Source: Promicromonospora soli
GTDB lineage: Bacteria; Actinomycetota; Actinomycetes; Actinomycetales; Cellulomonadaceae
Reading direction: 5' to 3'
Assembly (NCBI RefSeq): GCF_014653785.1
Contig: NZ_BNAS01000004.1
Span: 193,046-257,045, forward strand
Length of the DNA: 64,000 nt
The notes beneath the pieces are model-generated. The model ran no database searches. It saw only the letters and a list, made by a program, of their open reading frames with translations, and was not told the DNA's origin. This document shows, piece by piece, positions 1 to 8,334 of this stretch. Every line of letters starts with the position of its first letter. Positions within the stretch are counted from its first letter, which is position 1. The position numbers and the translations under genes were made by a program.

Positions 1-58
1 GTGATCGTTGCGACTATGTGCCCGCTTTAGGCGCAACGATCGCGCCCACAACCAAGAG
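1..58 (+). repeat. Palindromic repeat, copy A (cut by window edge)
   Basis: This is the right-hand part of an imperfect palindrome whose left outer arm lies outside the window. From base 1 it matches the copy at 44091-44148 almost base for base, including the loop that reads CTATGTGCCCGCTTTAGG, which is not itself palindromic. The element ends 1 nt after the stop of dxr, which is on the minus strand, so it sits exactly where a terminator would. No T-tract follows. Other copies are at 6213-6280, 44076-44148 and 50128-50190. Confidence 0.85.
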
Positions 59-59
59 G

Positions 60-1226
60 TCAGGACTTGAGGAGGTCCGTGGTGCGGGTCCGAGCCCAGG
101 CGTCGGCCTCCAGGACGCCCTCGACCGAGCCCGCGTCGCCCGCGCCCGTCGTCGCGTGCTCCTCGACCACGGCGGCCACGGTGTCCACGATGTCGAGGAA
201 CCCGATGAGGCCGTCGTGGAACGCGTCCACGCAGACCTCGTTCGCCGCGTTGTAGACCGCCGGATGGGTGCCGCCGGCCTCGCCCACCTGCCGGGCCAGG
301 CGGACGGCGGGGAAGGCGTCGTCGTCCAGGGGCGCGAACTCCCAGGTGGCGGCCTGGGTCCAGTCGATCGGCACGTCGACGTCGGGCAGGCGGTCCGGCC
401 AGGACAGGCCGAGCGCGATCGGCACGAGCATCCGCGGCGGCCCGGCCTGAGCGATGGTGGAGCCGTCGACGAACTCGACCATGGAGTGGATCATCTGCTG
501 GGGGTGCACGACGACGTCGATGGCGCTGAACGGCAGGTCGAACAGCAGGTGCGCCTCGATCACCTCGAGGCCCTTGTTCACCAGGGTCGCGGAGTTGGTG
601 GTGACCACGCGCCCCATCGAGAAGTTGGGGTGCCGCAGGGCCTGCGCGGGCGTGACGTCCCGCAGCTCCGCGCGTGAGCGGCCGCGGAACGGCCCGCCGC
701 TCGCGGTCACCACGAGCCTACGGACCTCGGCCGCGGACCCCGAGCGCAGCGACTGCGCGATGGCCGAGTGCTCAGAGTCCACGGGCACGATCTGGCCCTC
801 GTGCCGCACCGCGGCCTTGACCAGGGCGCCGCCCACCACGAGCGACTCCTTGTTCGCGAGCGCCAGCGTCGAGCCGGCCGCCAGCGCGGCCAGGGTGGGG
901 CGCAGGCCTACCGAACCGGTGATGCCGTTGAGCACGACGTCGCTCCCCCGGCCGGCCAGCTCGGTCGCGGCGTCGGGCCCGGAGAGCACCTCGACGCCGA
1001 CGGCCCCTGCCTCGTGCAGCAGGGTGGTCAGCGCGGGACGCGCCGCGGCGTCGGCCACCGCGACGGCGCGCACGCCGAGCGACGCCGCCTGCCGGGCTAG
1101 GGCGGGCAGGTCCGAGCCCCCGGCGGACAGGGCGTCCACGCGGAAGCGGTCGGGGTTGCGGCCGATGACGTCGATGGCCTGCGTGCCGATGGAACCGGTG
1201 GAGCCGAGGAGGGTGACGCTTCGCAT
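60..1226 (-). CDS. dxr: 1-deoxy-D-xylulose 5-phosphate reductoisomerase
   Basis: The enzyme converts 1-deoxy-D-xylulose 5-phosphate to 2-C-methyl-D-erythritol 4-phosphate with NADPH and a divalent metal, the committed step of the cytosolic MEP isoprenoid pathway. The 388-residue product has the usual family length. Visible signatures are the N-terminal NADPH-binding GSTGSIGTQA at residues 8-17, the NKESLVVGG segment, and the metal/substrate motif VDSEHSAIAQ. The ATG start needs no extension because the Rossmann strand begins at residue 3. It starts 12 nt after the stop of the RyR-domain gene on the same strand, so the two may be co-transcribed. In related actinobacteria dxr lies close to rlmN, cdsA and frr; here about 9 kb of accessory genes separates it from rlmN. 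Confidence 0.97.
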   Translation of the reverse strand: MRSVTLLGSTGSIGTQAIDVIGRNPDRFRVDALSAGGSDLPALARQAASLGVRAVAVADAAARPALTTLLHEAGAVGVEVLSGPDAATELAGRGSDVVLNGITGSVGLRPTLAALAAGSTLALANKESLVVGGALVKAAVRHEGQIVPVDSEHSAIAQSLRSGSAAEVRRLVVTASGGPFRGRSRAELRDVTPAQALRHPNFSMGRVVTTNSATLVNKGLEVIEAHLLFDLPFSAIDVVVHPQQMIHSMVEFVDGSTIAQAGPPRMLVPIALGLSWPDRLPDVDVPIDWTQAATWEFAPLDDDAFPAVRLARQVGEAGGTHPAVYNAANEVCVDAFHDGLIGFLDIVDTVAAVVEEHATTGAGDAGSVEGVLEADAWARTRTTDLLKS

Positions 1227-1238
1227 GGGCCCATCCTG

Positions 1239-3038
1239 TCAGCCCTCGCCGGGCTGCTCGGCCCTGCCCCGGCCGAACACCCGCCAGCCCCGGACCACGC
1301 CGCGCGGGTCTCGGACGGGTTCGCCCGCGGCCTCCCATCCGGCGTTGTCGTCGAGCGGGACCACGTGCAGGCCGAAGTCCGCGAGGATCACCGGGATCGC
1401 GCGGATCACCGCGCGGTCCTTCTCCCGGTCCGGCTCGGACAGGTCCGCCCAGGGCCGCAGGTCCGGGTGCAGGCGGCGGACGTCGTCCCGCTCGGGCCCG
1501 TAGGTCCAGCCGGCGGCGATCTTCTCCGCCATCCACCGCTCGTGCTCGTCCACGGCTCGCGCGTCCACCACGGGCTCCGGGATCCGGCCGTGCTCGGCGT
1601 CGCCGGCGGGCACGACGGTGCAGCCCATCTGGCGGAGCCGGTCGGGGATGGCGCGCACCTGTGCGCGGTTCGCGGCCCGCAGGTCCTCGGACAGGTCGGC
1701 CCACGAGACCATGGCCGGCGTGCTCTGCCAGGCGACGCCGCGAGAGCGCTGGTTGCGCAGGTAGGTCAGGTGCGCCGAGACGGCCATCAGGTCGTAGACG
1801 TCGTCGTGCACCAGCACGCCGGGCGCGGTCGCCCTGCGCAGCAGCGTCCCCGGTTCGACGACGTCGAGGCGCCCGCCGAGGTCGTCGAGGATCGCGTCGT
1901 CGTGGACGCCGAACAGCCCGCCCAGGCCCGCCAGGCGGTTGAGGCGCAGCACGACGGCGCCCCCGCTCGCGCGCCAGAGGTCGCTGTCGCGCAGGGCGTG
2001 CCGGAGCGCCTCGCCGTCGTCGTCGTGGCACACGTAGACCCGCTGCGGGATGCCGACGTCGCGGACCTCGGCGAACGTCTCCACCGGGACGAGCCGGCAC
2101 GCGGCGCGCACGCTGGGCCAGCGGGCGCGCAGCGCCTCGGCGGCGTCGCGCGAGCCCGGCCCGACCAGGGTCACCGTGAGCGGTTCGCCGCCGGACGCGA
2201 TCTCGACGCTTCGCAGGCGCGCGAACGCCACGACCAGCGCCCGGCCGAACGTGCCGTGCCCGACTATCGAGACGTGCGGGGCGTCGCCGCGGGCGATCGT
2301 GTGGTCGCGGCGCGCGAGGGACCGGGCGACGAGCTCGCCGAGAGTGAAGAAGTCGACGCCGGGCTGCGGGTGGCTGAGGTGCCGCGCCTGCAGCGCGAGA
2401 GCGAGCTCCGGGTCGCTGACGTGCGCGTTGAGCCGCAGGCCGGACAGGGCTGGGTCCCGGTCCGCGCGCTTGGCCACGGCCACGGTGAGCGCGTTGACGC
2501 CGGGCTCGTCGTCCTCGGCCTCGCAGGCGTAGAGCACGGCGGCGCCGGACACGCCGGCGCTGCGCAGCGACTCGGCGTCGCCCGTGGCGGTGCGCGCGAC
2601 GAGCGCGCCCCGTGCCGCGAGCGCCCCGGCGATGAGGTCGGCCTCGGGCGTGCGGCCGACGACTATCGCGTGCCCGCGCATCCGGCGCGTGCGCATGAGC
2701 ACGAACTGGTCGGCGAACAGCGACCGCACCGCCTCGAACACGGCGTAGCCGGTGGCGACCGGGGCGAGGAAGCGCGCGGCCTGGAGCTGCCAGGGCAGGT
2801 CGCCGCCCTCGTTCGTGGCCTCGGCGCCGAGCACGAAGAGCTGGACCGAGTAGTAGACCAGGTCCCACCCGGTGGTGCCCCAGACGAAGTCCGGGGAGGT
2901 CCGGTAGAGCCAGAAGCCCCACAGCCCGAGCCCGAACGCCACGCCGAACAGCGCGGTGAAGCCGGCGCGTACCCACGACCGGCGCACCCGCAGCCGCCGG
3001 GGTCCGCCGCTGGGGAGGACCAGCTCCGGTGCCGTCAT
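1239..3038 (-). CDS. Membrane TrkA-like Rossmann protein with C-terminal RyR domain(s)
   Basis: The predicted 599-residue protein has no assigned function. Two hydrophobic segments (about 24-46 and 84-109) flank a short hydrophobic stretch near 55-72, like a 2-TM channel module, but no K+ filter of the TVGYG type is present. A TrkA-N-like Rossmann region follows (about 122-245; strand HAIVVG). A second one is at about 254-395 with GHGTFG as a GxGxxG loop. The C-terminus (about 496-562) matches the RyR repeat family: HERWMAEK, GWTYGPERDD, HPDLRPWADL, then IRAIP. A weaker related segment at about 410-478 repeats WADLSEDLR and VRAIPDRL. I chose the ATG at 3038, preceded by GAGGAGGG; an ATG at 3104 would add 22 unsupported residues. 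It is divergent from the TIR gene and upstream of dxr. A ligand-gated or NAD(P)-sensing channel role is inference. Confidence 0.8.
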   Translation of the reverse strand: MTAPELVLPSGGPRRLRVRRSWVRAGFTALFGVAFGLGLWGFWLYRTSPDFVWGTTGWDLVYYSVQLFVLGAEATNEGGDLPWQLQAARFLAPVATGYAVFEAVRSLFADQFVLMRTRRMRGHAIVVGRTPEADLIAGALAARGALVARTATGDAESLRSAGVSGAAVLYACEAEDDEPGVNALTVAVAKRADRDPALSGLRLNAHVSDPELALALQARHLSHPQPGVDFFTLGELVARSLARRDHTIARGDAPHVSIVGHGTFGRALVVAFARLRSVEIASGGEPLTVTLVGPGSRDAAEALRARWPSVRAACRLVPVETFAEVRDVGIPQRVYVCHDDDGEALRHALRDSDLWRASGGAVVLRLNRLAGLGGLFGVHDDAILDDLGGRLDVVEPGTLLRRATAPGVLVHDDVYDLMAVSAHLTYLRNQRSRGVAWQSTPAMVSWADLSEDLRAANRAQVRAIPDRLRQMGCTVVPAGDAEHGRIPEPVVDARAVDEHERWMAEKIAAGWTYGPERDDVRRLHPDLRPWADLSEPDREKDRAVIRAIPVILADFGLHVVPLDDNAGWEAAGEPVRDPRGVVRGWRVFGRGRAEQPGEG

Positions 3039-3170
3039 CTCATTGCCCTCCTCGTCGACCCGACCGACCCGGCCCCGACCGACCGTCATGACCTGCGGCG
3101 ACACTACACACCGGGGGATATATTTCTCCGGGTCCGCAACATTCGCCGAGGAAAGGCTGCGGAAGCGAGG
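3039..3170. promoter_or_regulatory. Divergent promoter region between RyR and TIR genes
   Basis: These 132 bases are the only control region for the head-to-head pair. It holds an AT-rich pocket (GGATATATTTCT) unusual for this GC-rich sequence. The pocket lies inside an imperfect inverted repeat at 3111-3132, with CCGGGGGA on one side and TCTCCGGG on the other. This could be a -10 element overlapping an operator. A shared promoter region suggests the two genes are regulated together. Confidence 0.4.
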
Positions 3171-6100
3171 ATGACCGACCGGAGAGTCCGCTCCCTGCTA
3201 CCCACCAAACTGCCCGCCGGCCTGCTACCCGCCAGTCTGTTACCCCCAAACAGCGCGCACGCGGTGCCGCGCGGCGCCCGGTACGACGGCTTCCTCTCGT
3301 ACAGCCGCGACTCCGACGGCGAGTTCGCGCCCGCCTTCCACGCGCAGCTCCTCGACTTCGACAAGCGCGACGGCGTCCCCGACCTGAACATCTTTCTGGA
3401 CCGGACCGGCCTGGCGAACAACCCCAGCCTGTGGGACGCGATCGAGCGCAAGCTCGAGCGTTCGAGCTACCTCATCCTGTTCGCCTCGGAGGGCGCCGCC
3501 AGCTCCCACTACGTGGCCAAGGAGGTGGCGTGGTGGCTCGACCACCGCGAGCCCGAGACCCTCCTGGTGGCGCTGACCAGCGGCAAGATCGTCTGGGACC
3601 AGACGGCGAACAGGATCGACACCATCAGCACCACCGCGCTGCCCGCGCCGCTCGCCCAGCGGATCGACCACGAGCCCAAGTGGACCGACCTGACGCGGCT
3701 GCGCCAGCGCCGTCGGTCCTGGCGGCACCACCCGGACCGGGCGACGGCGCTCGCCGAGCTCGTCACCCCGCTGCGCGGCCCCGATGCCAGCACCGAGGAG
3801 ATCCTCAGCGCCCACATCGCCCGCCAGAGCTCGGCGGGCCTGCGCAGCCGTCTGGTGAGCGTGGTCCTCGGGGCGATACTGCTCCTGGCCGTCGGCGCGT
3901 TCGCTTACGCCTTGCGGGAGGCGGACCGCGCGAACGACGCCGTGAACGCGAATGCCGCGCACCTGCTCGGGGCGACGTCGCACGTCGTGCACCAGGACGA
4001 TCCCGCGACCGCGCAGCTGCTGGCGGTCGAGGCGGTCGGCCGGCTCCGGGACGGGCAGACCCGCACGGCGCTGTTCAACGCGGTCACGGCGAACGAGCCC
4101 GCGGACCCGTACCTGCTGCGCACCGTGGACGTGCCCGAGGAGACCGAGCTCGCCGACGTCGCCCCGACCACCACCGGCATCGTCGGCCGTACCGACACCG
4201 GCGACTTCGTGCGGTGGAACCCCGACGACGGGGCGCCCACCGTCCTGCGCGGGGACCGCACCCCGTTCGGCACCGTCACCGGGTCCGAGCACACCGGACC
4301 CGTCGTGGCCGGGAGCTCGGACGGCACGGTGGTCGCCGCGGTGGACGACCTCGGCGTGACGGTCGGCCGGTTCGGGCCGCTGCCCGAGGGCAGCACCAGC
4401 CGGCAGACGCATCTCGACCTACCGGGCACGTCGGCGGTCGCGCTCACGCCCGACGGCGAGACGCTGTTCATCGCGTGGTACGACGCCGGGACCGGGAAGA
4501 ACCGGATCGGCAGCATCGGCCTCGTGGGCCGGGACCTCGCCGACCTGGAGTCCGACGAGCGGCGTCTGGAGTTCGGCAGCACGGCGGACACGGAGCTCGC
4601 CGTCACGTCGCTCGCGGTCGGATCCAGCCGCACGCTCGCCGTGGCGGACGCCGCGGCTGGCACCCTCGAGATCCGCAGTCTCGACACCCTGCGGCTGAGC
4701 AGACCCGGACCGGTCGACCTGCCCGAGGGCGGCGTCCCGTCGCCGTCGCTACGCGACTGGGCGACCCTGACCTCCGGTGCCGGCGGCACCACGGTGACCG
4801 TGCACCACTGGGCCGACGGCTCGGCGCGCTCGGCGGACTGCCCGGTCCCGCGCGCCTGGTCGAACCCGGAGGTCGTGGCGATCGACGACGCCACCACCCG
4901 CGCCCTGGTCGCCACGGACAACGGGCTGATCGCGTGCGAGATCTCCGGCGGCACCGACCAGCACCGCACCTGGCACCTGTCGGGCATCCGGCGGCCCGGC
5001 CCGCCGGTGCTGGTCGGTGTCGACCGGGTAGCGGCGGCGTCGGAGGGCCGCATTGCGCTGTGGACCACGGCCGGCACGCACGGCGACATGCCGCTGCCGA
5101 GCGCGGCGGGCGCGGCGGAGGCCGCTCGGGGGCCGAGCCTGTCGAGACCCGGCCCGACTGCGGTCCTGGCCACGTTCCGGGGCGAGCCGACGCGGCCGGC
5201 GAGCACCGCGGCATCCTGGTCGGACGGCACGGTCATGATCCACGGCCTCGGCACGGTATCCCTCCCGCCCGACAGCGCGGACGCCGGCCGGCCGCTGCTG
5301 CCGGTGTGGCTCGACCCGAACCGGCTTCTGCTCATCACCCCCGACGGCAATGCGTACCGGACCCAGGGCGGGACGGTGGCCGGCTACGAGGCCGGGTTCC
5401 GCGACCTCGTACCCGGCCTCGATCGGGGCGACCCGGCCTGCGCCACGATCATGAGCGCCCAGCGCACGCAGGACGGCATCCTGCTGGTCGACGCGTGCTC
5501 CGGCCTCCACCTGCTCGACGCCGGCCTCCAGGAACGGGCCTTGTACGTGCCCGGCCCGCTGGGCAGCACGCCCCGGCTCGGCTCCGCGTGGGCGGAGCCC
5601 GGCCGGGTGGCGGTGTCCGACGACGGGAGCCGGGTCGCTGTCGCGCCCCGCGACTTCTCGCTCCGGGTCGCCGACCTCGACGCCGCGGCCCGGGGCGAGA
5701 CGGAAGTCTGGACGGTGCGCGGCAGCAGCGTGGCGCAGGTGCACATGATCGGCGCGCACAACGACGCAGAGCACCGGCCGGTACCGGACCAGCTCGTCAC
5801 GCTCGGCCTGGACTCGAAGGTGCGCCTGCGCACGGTCTCCGCGGCGTCGGGCCCCGAGGCGCTCGACCTCGCCGGCACGTACGGGGACGTGATGGCGGTG
5901 CTGCCGGGGCCGAACCTCGTGGCGCGGAACCAGGGCCGGGCGCTGGCGTTCTTCGACATCGACACCGGTCAGAAGGTCGGCGAGCTGGCGACGCGGCTGT
6001 ACTCGCCAGGCGGCGAGGCCGCGGCGAGCGACGTGCATGCGGGCGACGGCCAGCTTCTCGTGGTCCAGAACCATGGCGTCACCACGGGGTGGACCTTCTC

Positions 6101-6209
6101 GGACGACCAGATGATCGCCCGGGCCTGCGCCATGGCGGGGCGGCAGCCGACCGCCGACGACATGCCCGACGGAGTGACGCTCGGCGAGAACCCGGCCTGC
6201 TCTCCCTGA
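3171..6209 (+). CDS. TIR domain, transmembrane helix, WD40-like beta-propeller protein
   Basis: The predicted protein has 1012 residues. Residues about 37-170 form a TIR domain: YDGFLSYSRDSD opens the fold, NIFLDRTGL is the box-2-like region, and SSHYVAKEVAWW carries Glu118 at the position of the catalytic Glu of NAD-cleaving TIR enzymes. One hydrophobic helix follows at about 227-249. The remaining roughly 740 residues are repetitive beta strands like a WD40 propeller, introduced by a helical segment (AAHLLGATSHVV, then AQLLAVEAVGRL) and ending in an ACAMAGRQPT element. That end resembles the C-terminus of actinobacterial WD40 effector proteins. The ATG at 3171 follows a purine-rich GGAAGCGAGG; the open frame upstream is antisense to the RyR gene and rejected. 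It is divergent from the RyR gene and ends 7 nt before palindromic repeat B. NADase activity is inferred from the family. Confidence 0.85.
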   Translation: MTDRRVRSLLPTKLPAGLLPASLLPPNSAHAVPRGARYDGFLSYSRDSDGEFAPAFHAQLLDFDKRDGVPDLNIFLDRTGLANNPSLWDAIERKLERSSYLILFASEGAASSHYVAKEVAWWLDHREPETLLVALTSGKIVWDQTANRIDTISTTALPAPLAQRIDHEPKWTDLTRLRQRRRSWRHHPDRATALAELVTPLRGPDASTEEILSAHIARQSSAGLRSRLVSVVLGAILLLAVGAFAYALREADRANDAVNANAAHLLGATSHVVHQDDPATAQLLAVEAVGRLRDGQTRTALFNAVTANEPADPYLLRTVDVPEETELADVAPTTTGIVGRTDTGDFVRWNPDDGAPTVLRGDRTPFGTVTGSEHTGPVVAGSSDGTVVAAVDDLGVTVGRFGPLPEGSTSRQTHLDLPGTSAVALTPDGETLFIAWYDAGTGKNRIGSIGLVGRDLADLESDERRLEFGSTADTELAVTSLAVGSSRTLAVADAAAGTLEIRSLDTLRLSRPGPVDLPEGGVPSPSLRDWATLTSGAGGTTVTVHHWADGSARSADCPVPRAWSNPEVVAIDDATTRALVATDNGLIACEISGGTDQHRTWHLSGIRRPGPPVLVGVDRVAAASEGRIALWTTAGTHGDMPLPSAAGAAEAARGPSLSRPGPTAVLATFRGEPTRPASTAASWSDGTVMIHGLGTVSLPPDSADAGRPLLPVWLDPNRLLLITPDGNAYRTQGGTVAGYEAGFRDLVPGLDRGDPACATIMSAQRTQDGILLVDACSGLHLLDAGLQERALYVPGPLGSTPRLGSAWAEPGRVAVSDDGSRVAVAPRDFSLRVADLDAAARGETEVWTVRGSSVAQVHMIGAHNDAEHRPVPDQLVTLGLDSKVRLRTVSAASGPEALDLAGTYGDVMAVLPGPNLVARNQGRALAFFDIDTGQKVGELATRLYSPGGEAAASDVHAGDGQLLVVQNHGVTTGWTFSDDQMIARACAMAGRQPTADDMPDGVTLGENPACSP
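5132..5154 (+). repeat. GAGCCTGTCGAGAC interspersed repeat inside the TIR gene
   Basis: The bases around GAGCCTGTCGAGACC match the short repeat also seen at 26479-26520, 30750-30773, 53059-53098, 55761-55785 and 56678-56707. Here it lies in frame within the propeller region and encodes part of PSLSRPGP. It may be chance in such GC-rich DNA, but the 14-nt core is identical to the copy in ileS. Confidence 0.5.
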
Positions 6210-6212
6210 ATG

Positions 6213-6280
6213 CTTTGTTGTGGGCGTGATCGTTGCGCCTAAAACGGGCGTGTTATCGCAACGATCGCGCCCACAACAAG
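6213..6280 (-). repeat. Palindromic repeat, copy B
   Basis: The arms at 6217-6237 and 6257-6277 are 21 nt long and complementary at all but one position. Between them is the conserved asymmetric loop, which here reads in the opposite orientation to copies A and C. The element lies 7 nt after the stop of the TIR gene and 14 nt from the stop of the convergent gene at 6295, so it could terminate both. No T-tract is present on either side. Confidence 0.85.
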
Positions 6281-6294
6281 GGGGTACGGAGGGC

Positions 6295-6915
6295 TTACGC
6301 CTCCAGGCGCTTGGCCTCGTTCTCCGTCTCGTCCGCCTCGTCGTCGCGGCCCTCCTTGCGCAGCACGCTGGAGAGCGAGCGCATCGAGGCGGCGGCGTCG
6401 GTCTTGGCGAGGTCCGACGACGTCCCGCGCAGCTTGGCCCACAGGCTCATCGCCTCCTCGGCGACCTCGAGCACCTGCGAGCGCTCCTTGCCGCCGATCA
6501 CCGACGTCGTGACCGTCTCCAGCGCGTGCTCCAGGGCTGCGCGCTGCTTGCCCGGGTCGTCGTCGTCGAGGCTGCGGTACAGCTCGACGGCCTCGCCCAT
6601 GAGCTTGGTGGTCGGCTTGTCCTGGTCCTTCGCGGCGGCCTGGCTGCCGAACGACAGCAGCGCCACGGCCAGCCGCGACACAGTGCTGCCGGTCTCGCCG
6701 GGCAGCTTCTCCGCGCCCGAGACCACCAGCTCGTGCAGCCTGGCCACGGTGCGCGTCTCGAGGTTCTCCTCGCGCTCCGGGGTCTCGTCCTGCTCCGGGG
6801 TCTCGGCCCGCTCTGCGACGTCGACCGCCGCCTGCGGCGCCAGCTCCGGTGTCGCCTCCCCTGCTGCGGTGACCTGAGCCACCTGTGCCTGCTCCGGCAG
6901 TGCGTCCGTGCTCAC
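6295..6915 (-). CDS. Hypothetical helical protein
   Basis: The 206-residue product is not recognised. The first third is rich in Glu, Pro, Ala and Gln (EQDETPEREENLE) and probably disordered. The rest reads as regularly spaced amphipathic helices (ARLHELVVSGAEKL, TTKLMGEAVELYRSL, ALEHALETVTT, EAMSLWAKLRG), compatible with a helical-repeat or bundle fold. No signal peptide or membrane helix is seen. The GTG start at 6915 has a strong AGGAGG 7 nt upstream; the open frame extending further is antisense to the DUF418 gene and was rejected. The gene is convergent with the TIR gene and divergent from the DUF418 gene. Whether it belongs to the TIR/RyR system is unknown. Confidence 0.7.
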   Translation of the reverse strand: MSTDALPEQAQVAQVTAAGEATPELAPQAAVDVAERAETPEQDETPEREENLETRTVARLHELVVSGAEKLPGETGSTVSRLAVALLSFGSQAAAKDQDKPTTKLMGEAVELYRSLDDDDPGKQRAALEHALETVTTSVIGGKERSQVLEVAEEAMSLWAKLRGTSSDLAKTDAAASMRSLSSVLRKEGRDDEADETENEAKRLEA

Positions 6916-7050
6916 TCGTTCCTCCTGTCCACGGTGCGACGAAACTACCAGAACGGGCGATCGGTCCGGTATGCGCCGTACTCCTGGGCCCAGGCCTCCG
7001 GCGGCGCGGCTTTCCTCGCGGCCAGGCCGCCGGCCTGCTGAGATGTAACC

Positions 7051-8334
7051 ATGTCCACCACAGCCCTGACCCGGGGACCCGTCCAGGCCTCGGAGCGTTC
7101 GCCCGCACCCGACCTCGCGCGCGGCCTCATGCTCCTCCTGATCGCCGTCGCGAACACGCCCTACTACCTGTGGGGCCGCGAGATGAACTACGGGTCGTCG
7201 CACCCCGTCGACGGCTCGGCGGTCGACAAGGTGGCGGACTTCCTCATCATCACTCTCGTGGACATGCGGACCTACCCCATGTTCGCGTTCCTGTTCGGCT
7301 ACGGGATGATGCAGCTCTACAACCGCCAGGTCTCCTCCGGGACCCCGGAGGACGCCGCCCGCAAGCTTCTGCAGAGGCGGAACGCCCTGCTCCTGGTGTT
7401 CGGGTTCGTCCATGCGGCCCTGCTCTGGATGGGCGACGTGCTCGGCGCGTACGGCCTGGCCGGCCTGCTCATGGTGTGGCTCTTCTTCAAGGCCAAGGAC
7501 GTCACCCTGATCGTGTGGACATGGGTGTTCGGCGGGCTGCTGACGATCGGCGTGGTGTTCGCGGTGATCGGCGCGTGGTTCGTGGCGCAGCTCCCCGCGG
7601 ACGACGCCCTGGCCCAGTCGATCGCGGCCGACTTCGCCCAGACGACCGACTCGATGTCGGCGACGTCGTACCTCGACTCGATCGGCGAGCGCCTGAGCTG
7701 GTGGGCGCTCGGCACGGTCGCGCAGGGCGTGCTCATGCTCGTGGTCCCGATGATGCTGCTGCTCGCGTTCTGGGCCGGCCGCCGCCGCATCCTGGAGAAC
7801 CCGGGCGAGCACCTGCCGCTGCTGCGCCGCGTCGCGGTGGTCGGCATCACGATCGGCTGGCTCGGCCCGCTGCCTTCCGCGCTCGACCACGTGGGCGTCG
7901 CCATCGTGCCCGACCACGCCGCCTGGGTCTTCATCCCCGTGCAGGTCCTGACCGGCTTCTTCGGCGGCCTGGGCTACGTCGCGCTGTTCGGGCTGCTGGG
8001 CCACCGGGTGGCGCTACGCCGCAGCGGCGCGCCGTCGCGCAACCTGCTCACCACGGACGGGCCCTTCGTCGGCGCCGTCCAGGCGGTCGGCAAGCGGTCG
8101 CTGACCTCCTACCTGCTGCAGTCGGTGCTGTGCGCACCCATCCTCACCGCGTGGGGGCTCGGCCTCGGCGAGCACCTCAGCTCGTGGACGATGCTGCTGT
8201 ACGCGGTGGTCGTCTGGGGAGCCACCGTGGCGTTCGCGGTCTGGCAGGAGCGCACGGGCCGCCGCGGCCCGGCCGAGGTGGCGCTGCGCCGGCTGGTCTA
8301 CGGCCGGCCCGTGCAGGCTCCGGTCCAGGTCTAG
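7051..8334 (+). CDS. DUF418 (YeiB-like) polytopic membrane protein
   Basis: The 427-residue protein has around ten hydrophobic segments and the layout of the DUF418/YeiB family. The N-terminal APDLARGLMLLLIAVAN resembles the opening of the acyltransferase-3-like superfamily. An internal FAFLFGYGMMQLYNR and a C-terminal GKRSLTSYLLQSVL are typical of the family. Its biochemical function is not established; some relatives are thought to modify or translocate small molecules at the membrane. The ATG at 7051 begins just before the conserved LARGLMLL helix, although the ribosome site is weak. The gene overlaps the 3' end of the convergent small gene at 8331 by 4 nt. Confidence 0.88.
   Translation: MSTTALTRGPVQASERSPAPDLARGLMLLLIAVANTPYYLWGREMNYGSSHPVDGSAVDKVADFLIITLVDMRTYPMFAFLFGYGMMQLYNRQVSSGTPEDAARKLLQRRNALLLVFGFVHAALLWMGDVLGAYGLAGLLMVWLFFKAKDVTLIVWTWVFGGLLTIGVVFAVIGAWFVAQLPADDALAQSIAADFAQTTDSMSATSYLDSIGERLSWWALGTVAQGVLMLVVPMMLLLAFWAGRRRILENPGEHLPLLRRVAVVGITIGWLGPLPSALDHVGVAIVPDHAAWVFIPVQVLTGFFGGLGYVALFGLLGHRVALRRSGAPSRNLLTTDGPFVGAVQAVGKRSLTSYLLQSVLCAPILTAWGLGLGEHLSSWTMLLYAVVVWGATVAFAVWQERTGRRGPAEVALRRLVYGRPVQAPVQV

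Follow-up and report, generated by a model that had tools for sequence, protein, structure and literature searches.

A divergent pair of TIR and RyR membrane protein genes in Promicromonospora soli as a candidate Thoeris-like signalling system

Introduction

The described systems closest to the locus analysed here are Thoeris, composed of the TIR protein ThsB and the effector ThsA, the animal ryanodine receptors with their Repeat12 domain, and the RCK/TrkA-gated channels of the MthK type, in which a short helix separates two transmembrane (TM) helices and Rossmann domains follow. The direct action of cyclic ADP-ribose (cADPR) on animal ryanodine receptors is an old open question. On the phage side, the RyR-domain protein RyDEP is reported in a 2026 preprint (PMC13232231) to bind and cleave TIR-made 2'/3'cADPR, with H75, W78, H100 and D117 as ligand residues; six of the eight RyDEP homologues tested there bound the signals, with cleavage seen in none of the eight.

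Here, two divergent genes are described in a 64,000-nucleotide stretch of the Promicromonospora soli genome (5.38 Mb), which is called the window and to which all coordinates refer, one encoding the RyR protein P0002 and the other the TIR protein P0004. On balance, they are read as a Thoeris-like pair, in which the TIR protein would make a messenger derived from nicotinamide adenine dinucleotide (NAD) and the RyR membrane protein would receive it, and such a TIR-to-RyR signalling pair is supported by the adjacency of the genes, their joint inheritance and the presence of the ligand residues. No description of a host TIR-RyR membrane pair was seen among the results listed in literature searches of openly licensed PMC papers. 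Predicted nucleotide-sensing systems of this kind were reportedly put forward by Burroughs and others in 2015, and that work may already describe the pairing.

Results

Organization of the locus

The pair and its spacer occupy the following positions.
1239..3038, minus strand: RyR gene (protein P0002, 599 amino acids), open frame from ATG
3171..6209, plus strand: TIR gene (protein P0004, 1012 amino acids), open frame from ATG
3039..3170, no strand: shared divergent control region of 132 bp between the two start codons

An earlier note on this DNA, made from the sequence alone, had described two genes with a shared 132-bp control region, and both open frames and the distance between their start codons agree with it. 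The core of the spacer is conserved in most of nine aligned Promicromonospora species; a promoter and terminator scan of window positions 1-7200 found none. Because the whole genome holds just two RyR and two TIR_2 matches in 5.38 Mb, the adjacency of the RyR and TIR genes is unlikely to have arisen by chance. Assignment of the two proteins to a known defence system was rejected, as PADLOC (E up to 1) gave no match for either of them and NCBIfam chance-level matches only.

The RyR protein and its ligand motif

P0002 contains the following elements.
1356..1805, minus strand: tandem RyR (Repeat12-like) domain, amino acids 412-561, from Pfam RyR and Foldseek
1416..1544, minus strand: ligand motif H499, W502, H524 and D541, spaced as in RyDEP, from alignment
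2898..2981, minus strand: predicted TM helix 1, amino acids 20-47, from the AlphaFold2 model (mean predicted local distance difference test, pLDDT, 60) and hydropathy
2682..2792, minus strand: predicted TM helix 2 with linker helix, amino acids 83-119, from the AlphaFold2 model and conserved alignment columns
2307..2672, minus strand: first Rossmann-like (TrkA_N/RCK-like) domain, amino acids 123-244, from the model and a TrkA_N-bearing homologue
1857..2276, minus strand: second Rossmann-like domain, amino acids 255-394, from the model

In a Pfam scan of P0002, RyR (PF02026) was the sole match (53.7 bits against a cut-off of 27.4, E 2.5e-14, amino acids 489-559), with no TrkA_N. Using Foldseek, about 200 C-terminal residues were found to match Repeat12 of human RyR3 with ATP (6uhh, E 6.4e-7, 200 columns) and the RyR3 Repeat12 crystal with ADP plus dantrolene (E 2.9e-6). 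The four motif residues are invariant in an alignment of 19 sequences, and their spacing equals that in RyDEP, with W502 at 3 and H524 at 25 residues from H499 and D541 at 17 residues from H524, a comparison based on the RyDEP residue numbers given in PMC13232231 and not on the RyDEP sequence. The RyR modules that the earlier note had proposed are thus borne out by the Repeat12 match, with the ligand motif present, by eye, in the second module only.

The AlphaFold2 model, built from the 19 aligned sequences, predicts a short helix (amino acids 57-70) in pore-helix position between the two TM helices, and the stretch between these two helices reads QLFVLGAEA, without a TVGYG selectivity filter; this membrane part may form a pore. 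A TIR-linked homologue from genus g45 aligns with P0002 over 514 columns (E 3e-42) and itself matches TrkA_N (E 2.4e-15), while a second TIR-linked g45 protein aligns over 480 columns, both alignments spanning most of P0002. Of the two-TM protein with TrkA-like Rossmann domains proposed earlier, the two helices and two Rossmann-like blocks are hence reproduced by the model at this low pLDDT, and TrkA_N is recognized in the homologue and not in P0002.

The TIR protein

P0004 contains the following elements.
3276..3695, plus strand: TIR domain, amino acids 36-175, from TIR_2 (E 1.3e-4, below cut-off) and profile comparison
3522..3524, plus strand: codon of the catalytic-position glutamate E118, aligned with glutamate in 23 of 23 rows of the TIR alignment
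3840..3908, plus strand: single TM helix, about amino acids 224-246 (predicted at 228-246), from hydropathy
4101..6185, plus strand: beta-rich, possibly propeller-like putative sensor region, amino acids 311-1005, weakly indicated by Pfam and the model

The alignment of E118 supports a relationship of P0004 to TIR proteins, and so does the comparison of its profile with that of a TIR-WD40 protein from the same genus (E 5.2e-24 over amino acids 35-300); a ThsB_TIR match was obtained below cut-off only, and a PDB sequence search gave no match at E 1 or better. This glutamate is critical for NADase activity where it is present in active TIRs, according to PMC7075850. The TIR domain with an intact catalytic-position glutamate and the membrane helix, both claimed from the sequence before, therefore hold, even with TIR_2 below its cut-off. 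The propeller that had been claimed together with them is plausible and weakly supported, as the C-terminal region is beta-rich in a model of low confidence (pLDDT 38), too poor for a fold search, and the match to Beta-prop_THOC3 (E 0.049) is far below cut-off.

Joint inheritance in Promicromonospora

The cassette formed by the two genes is bounded by conserved genes on both sides.
60..1226, minus strand: dxr, flanking housekeeping gene at one cassette edge, lying 12 bp downstream of the RyR gene
6295..6915, minus strand: conserved flanking gene at the other cassette edge, adjoining dxr in the three species without the pair

Among 13 Promicromonospora genomes, nine carry intact neighbouring RyR and TIR genes beside dxr and one (G004) carries fragments on broken contigs. 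The remaining three (G002, G003 and G011) lack the TIR gene as well as the RyR orthologue; there, the distance from dxr to the gene bounding the other side of the cassette is 85 to 111 bp, measured between aligned ends, and no remnant of either gene was found in the 19-kb dxr flanks at E 1e-3. The earlier note had asked whether the two genes are rarely neighbours in other genomes, and the outcome was favourable to the pair, with both genes in ten of the 13 genomes (one fragmented), neither in three, and RyR-TIR adjacency present in other lineages. In a species tree based on dxr and RyR-paralog DNA from 12 Promicromonospora genomes (without G004) and two Myceligenerans genomes, G011 groups with the cassette-bearing G001 (support 99/98) and G002 with G003 (100/100), and there must therefore have been at least two joint presence/absence changes.

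The RyR and TIR genes are both under purifying selection. Over 36 pairs from the nine genomes, the median ratio of nonsynonymous to synonymous substitution rates (dN/dS) was 0.12 for dxr, 0.16 for the whole P0002, 0.14 for its RyR part and 0.14 for its TM part, and in P0004 it rose from 0.16 in the TIR domain to 0.24 in the stalk and 0.31 in the C-terminal region, the fastest evolving one.

RyR-TIR adjacency in other lineages

In a class-wide sample of 394 genomes, 51 contained RyR at E 0.001, giving 59 places, of which two belong to the window genome. The other 57 places are covered by 56 flanks, some of which end at contig ends, and an RyR frame was obtained in 55 of them (none from L210). 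Nine of these 55 have a TIR gene directly beside them, at no more than 153 bp or with overlapping frames (L166, L177, L191, L193, L194, L198, L203, L206 and L212, the RyR protein of the last having 100 amino acids), as counted with a TIR profile that was built from a pattern and seeds and that weak TIRs may escape. By family, direct neighbours occur in seven of nine cases in f11, one of one in f6 and one of one in f42. With a loose pattern, all four motif residues were recognized in 38 of the 55 RyR proteins, the aspartate being missing in 13 and only histidine and tryptophan being kept in two; the last two matched no loose pattern, yet histidine and tryptophan are visible in both in another alignment. 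All four residues are kept in three of the nine directly TIR-linked proteins (L166, L198 and L212).

The association is strong in genus g45, where 50 of 118 genomes contain RyR, at 56 places, and 62 contain TIR_2. A TIR_2 match lies within 6 kb at 52 of the 56 RyR places, two of which share one TIR (G974), as compared to 0.26 expected by uniform placement. Both genes occur in 49 of the genomes, RyR only in one, TIR only in 13 and neither in 55 (Fisher p 1.2e-19, with no correction for kinship). At 32 places they are on the same strand with the TIR gene downstream, and at 20 they are on opposite strands, ten of these with TIR frames longer than 1,300 amino acids; the TIR neighbour in L206, one of this kind, is a TIR-nSTAND1-WD40 protein.

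Direct TIR neighbours of RyR genes are also present in G020, G476, G315 and G880. In G020, which belongs to the family of the window genome, a TIR-nSTAND gene lies 74 bp downstream of RyR and a second TIR gene, with SBP_bac_3, 2.8 kb away. An order-wide sample contained RyR in six of 396 genomes, three of them new; in one of these, G880, a TIR gene is located about 21 bp upstream of an AAA-RyR gene on the same strand, and in G630 and G895 no TIR neighbour was found, the G630 contig ending soon after the gene and the G895 RyR match being below cut-off. No TIR was found by the RyR gene of the Actinotalea genome G017 either. Taken together, the pairings recurring in other actinobacterial lineages point to a putative shared signalling pathway. 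The plain claim of a general TIR-RyR pair was rejected, since in the class sample the majority of RyR proteins lack a TIR neighbour.

In twelve TIR proteins adjoining RyR genes, P0004 included, the TIR domain is followed by a strongly hydrophobic helix in nine and by no such helix in three, namely both G020 partners (one with SBP_bac_3) and the G476 partner. PknH_C, which Pfam describes as an extracellular domain, was found in five of nine partner sequences scanned, of which the tally names only L193, the others being by inference the rest of the g45 proteins. The sidedness of the RyR-linked TIR proteins is inferred from charge and PknH_C, and it is unsure for P0004 because the charge bias at its helix is weak (3 versus 2 basic residues). 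PADLOC matches of partner proteins elsewhere concern the TIR parts only.

Four plasmid records matched, of which three were read. On a Rhodococcus plasmid (L214 965-12277), an RyR membrane gene and a DUF4062 gene are arranged divergently, and WD40 and TIR genes lie downstream; the RyR protein is a relative of the g45 type with Pfam RyR below cut-off, and DUF4062 is described in the abstract of PMC13174449 as a family of TIR-like NADases. A Methylobacterium plasmid encodes an RyR protein that matches MoxR/AAA weakly and is separated by a transposase from a nearby SIR2 gene, and on a Priestia plasmid a small RyR sits in a Pycsar-like group and a TIR gene is found at 1.4 kb. Among phage records, 27 were found with an RyR protein.

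Some neighbourhoods have features of their own. In L194 (7321-8831) the TIR gene by the RyR gene is split into two overlapping frames, a TIR part and a TM part, unlike its relatives, and an island in L096 (4998-13881, from G020) holds two TIR genes, one with SBP_bac_3 and one with nSTAND, together with two RyR frames. A TIR gene, an AAA (MoxR-like)-RyR gene and a weak YspA-SLOG frame stand in a row on one strand in L221 (5618-10124), and L222 (10220-12700, minus strand) combines RelA_SpoT, SLOG-in-TRPM (LSDAT) and RyR in one protein. In family f25 (L158-L209), many of the RyR membrane genes lie in neighbourhoods that recur (by eye, with peptide deformylase and metK) and have no TIR gene beside them, and in Actinotalea a 583-amino-acid protein with no Pfam match at E 0.1 overlaps the start of the RyR gene (L094 1454-3205).

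RyR paralogs and relatives of the pair

A paralog of P0002, about 47% identical, is present in all 13 Promicromonospora genomes (split in G004), and in the window genome (L035 8334-10046) it is located by pyk and an ANTAR-type regulator (names by eye) without a TIR gene nearby. In a family-wide sample at E 1e-20, P0002 found a match in 20 of 221 genomes and P0004 in 14; all of these 14 also have RyR, but they come from two genera. A scan of genome contigs yielded 20 loci, all of them in Promicromonospora, Myceligenerans or Actinotalea.

Of 41 RyR membrane proteins placed in a quick tree, 14 were labelled as TIR-linked, including L201 and the plasmid protein with looser links. The TIR-linked label requires at least three changes on this tree, in which several long branches meet and placements are unsure. 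Eight g45-type proteins from the other family form one group with L166, and all nine are linked. As far as this tree indicates, the window pair is most readily regarded as a separate case of a recurrent RyR-TIR association, because among the 28 proteins of its branch only P0002 and two orthologues are linked.

Discussion

Under the preferred reading, a membrane-anchored TIR protein would sense something via its C-terminal region and its TIR domain would convert NAD+ into an ADP-ribose-type messenger. This messenger would be bound by the Repeat12-like domain of P0002 through H499, W502, H524 and D541, and the RCK-like Rossmann domains would pass the binding on to the membrane part with its two helices, where a pore would most probably open that harms or arrests the cell. 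The trigger may be a phage or another signal, for example from the envelope.

A transmembrane receptor pathway for signals of the envelope or of stress rather than phage defence, with a sensor outside, TIR inside and an RyR-controlled output, differs from the Thoeris-like pair in its trigger only and is somewhat unlikely, although it is in line with the TM helix after the TIR domain in nine of twelve RyR-adjoining TIR proteins, with PknH_C in five of the nine partner sequences and with the stable inheritance in the genus. It is weakened by the weak charge bias at the P0004 helix, which leaves its sidedness unsure, by the three TIR partners (both from G020 and that of G476) without a post-TIR helix, and by the plasmid RyR genes near defence-type genes (Pycsar, DUF4062, TIR and SIR2).

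A number of observations weigh against a TIR-to-RyR pair. The two genes are divergent and do not form one operon, they are located among housekeeping genes, and PADLOC recognized neither protein; the TIR_2 (PF13676) score of P0004, 22.9 bits, is below the Pfam cut-off of 28 (E 1.3e-4). Their joint absence can be explained by one deletion each time, as the genes are adjacent. In the class sample, none of 44 RyR genes outside f11, f6 and f42 has a direct TIR neighbour, the nearest being 1.7 kb away (L174), and many f25 genomes hold 15-44 TIR_2 matches yet their RyR genes have no TIR neighbour. The motif aspartate is absent in six of seven g45 direct-neighbour RyR proteins examined. In the RyR tree, 25 of the 28 proteins in the branch of P0002 are unlinked, and its closest relatives beyond the orthologues are its own paralogs and Myceligenerans proteins, all of them unlinked. 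Neither dxr nor a P0004-type TIR was matched in the 11 paralog flanks searched, and in Myceligenerans (genus g15) the RyR and TIR types are unlinked in four of four genomes, on separate contigs in three and about 460 kb apart in the fourth.

An alternative is that the neighbours work apart, the RyR protein sensing a general ADP-ribose-type metabolite and P0004 being one of many actinobacterial TIR-TM proteins that stand alone. The paralog, as a possible metabolite sensor, occurs in 13 of 13 Promicromonospora genomes without a TIR partner, judged from the 11 flanks and from the TIR matches of G001 and G010, which are located elsewhere; in the window genome it stands by pyk and the ANTAR-type regulator, and a TIR-WD40 relative of P0004 (L097) has no RyR gene in its 19-kb flank (by eye). 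Against a joint gain or loss at least two times and a strong RyR-TIR adjacency in other lineages, this separate functioning is nevertheless unlikely. It is very unlikely that P0002 ends the signal by hydrolysing or soaking up the TIR product and so protects the cell like phage RyDEP, since, even with both positions of the RyDEP catalytic dyad as reported in PMC13232231 kept (H499 and D541), a membrane part and tandem Rossmann domains would be needless for a degrading enzyme, the motif aspartate is missing in those same six g45 proteins, and the homologues in that preprint mostly bound the signals (six of eight) and were never seen to cleave them (none of eight).

For the Thoeris-like pair, the earlier suggestion that a TIR-made NAD derivative acts on an RyR receptor thus gains from the recurrent adjacency and the RyDEP-spaced residues and loses from the unlinked paralog, the unlinked Myceligenerans genes and the many RyR proteins without a TIR neighbour. 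A wider proposal can be made tentatively, namely that RyR domains serve bacteria as receptors for TIR-made cADPR isomers in a recurrent host pathway, in which a membrane TIR receptor, in some lineages equipped with an extracytoplasmic sensor, makes the messenger and an RyR-RCK membrane protein responds with a change in ion flow. If so, this pathway would be a bacterial counterpart of the disputed cADPR-ryanodine receptor link in animals, and might be its forerunner, it would add a new kind of receiver to TIR-based signalling, and cADPR-type messengers and RyR domains would be united in one bacterial pathway. Phage RyR sponges and enzymes would then employ a domain that serves hosts as a receptor, and a compact bacterial pair with kept ligand residues would make the chemistry of cADPR binding by RyR directly testable.

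Comparison with known systems

As in Thoeris, with its ThsB TIR and ThsA effector, a TIR gene appears beside a gene for a likely nucleotide-binding receptor domain. The receiver differs, however, in that RyR (PF02026), TM helices and Rossmann-like domains take the place of SLOG-SIR2 or macro-TM, and the known ThsA effector architecture is absent from P0002, in which Pfam recognized RyR only and PADLOC nothing; in addition, the window genes are divergent, with ThsB_TIR matched below cut-off only. The TIR and TM region of P0004 is homologous to that of actinobacterial TIR-TM-WD40 proteins such as L097, whereas its C-terminal region is much more divergent and its gene adjoins an RyR gene. The RyDEP family has an RyR domain with H, W, H and D at the same spacing as P0002, as judged from PMC13232231, which presents RyDEP as a phage counter-defence enzyme and its homologues as sponges, whereas P0002 is encoded by a host and has membrane helices and additional domains.

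The tandem RyR domain of P0002 is similar in fold and sequence to Repeat12 of the animal ryanodine receptor, but P0002 has none of the other parts of that receptor and carries instead a two-TM membrane part with RCK-like domains. With the MthK-type channels it would share, according to its model, the two TM helices, the intervening short helix and the Rossmann domains that follow, and it would differ from them, at the low confidence of that model, in lacking the TVGYG filter and in carrying a C-terminal RyR domain.

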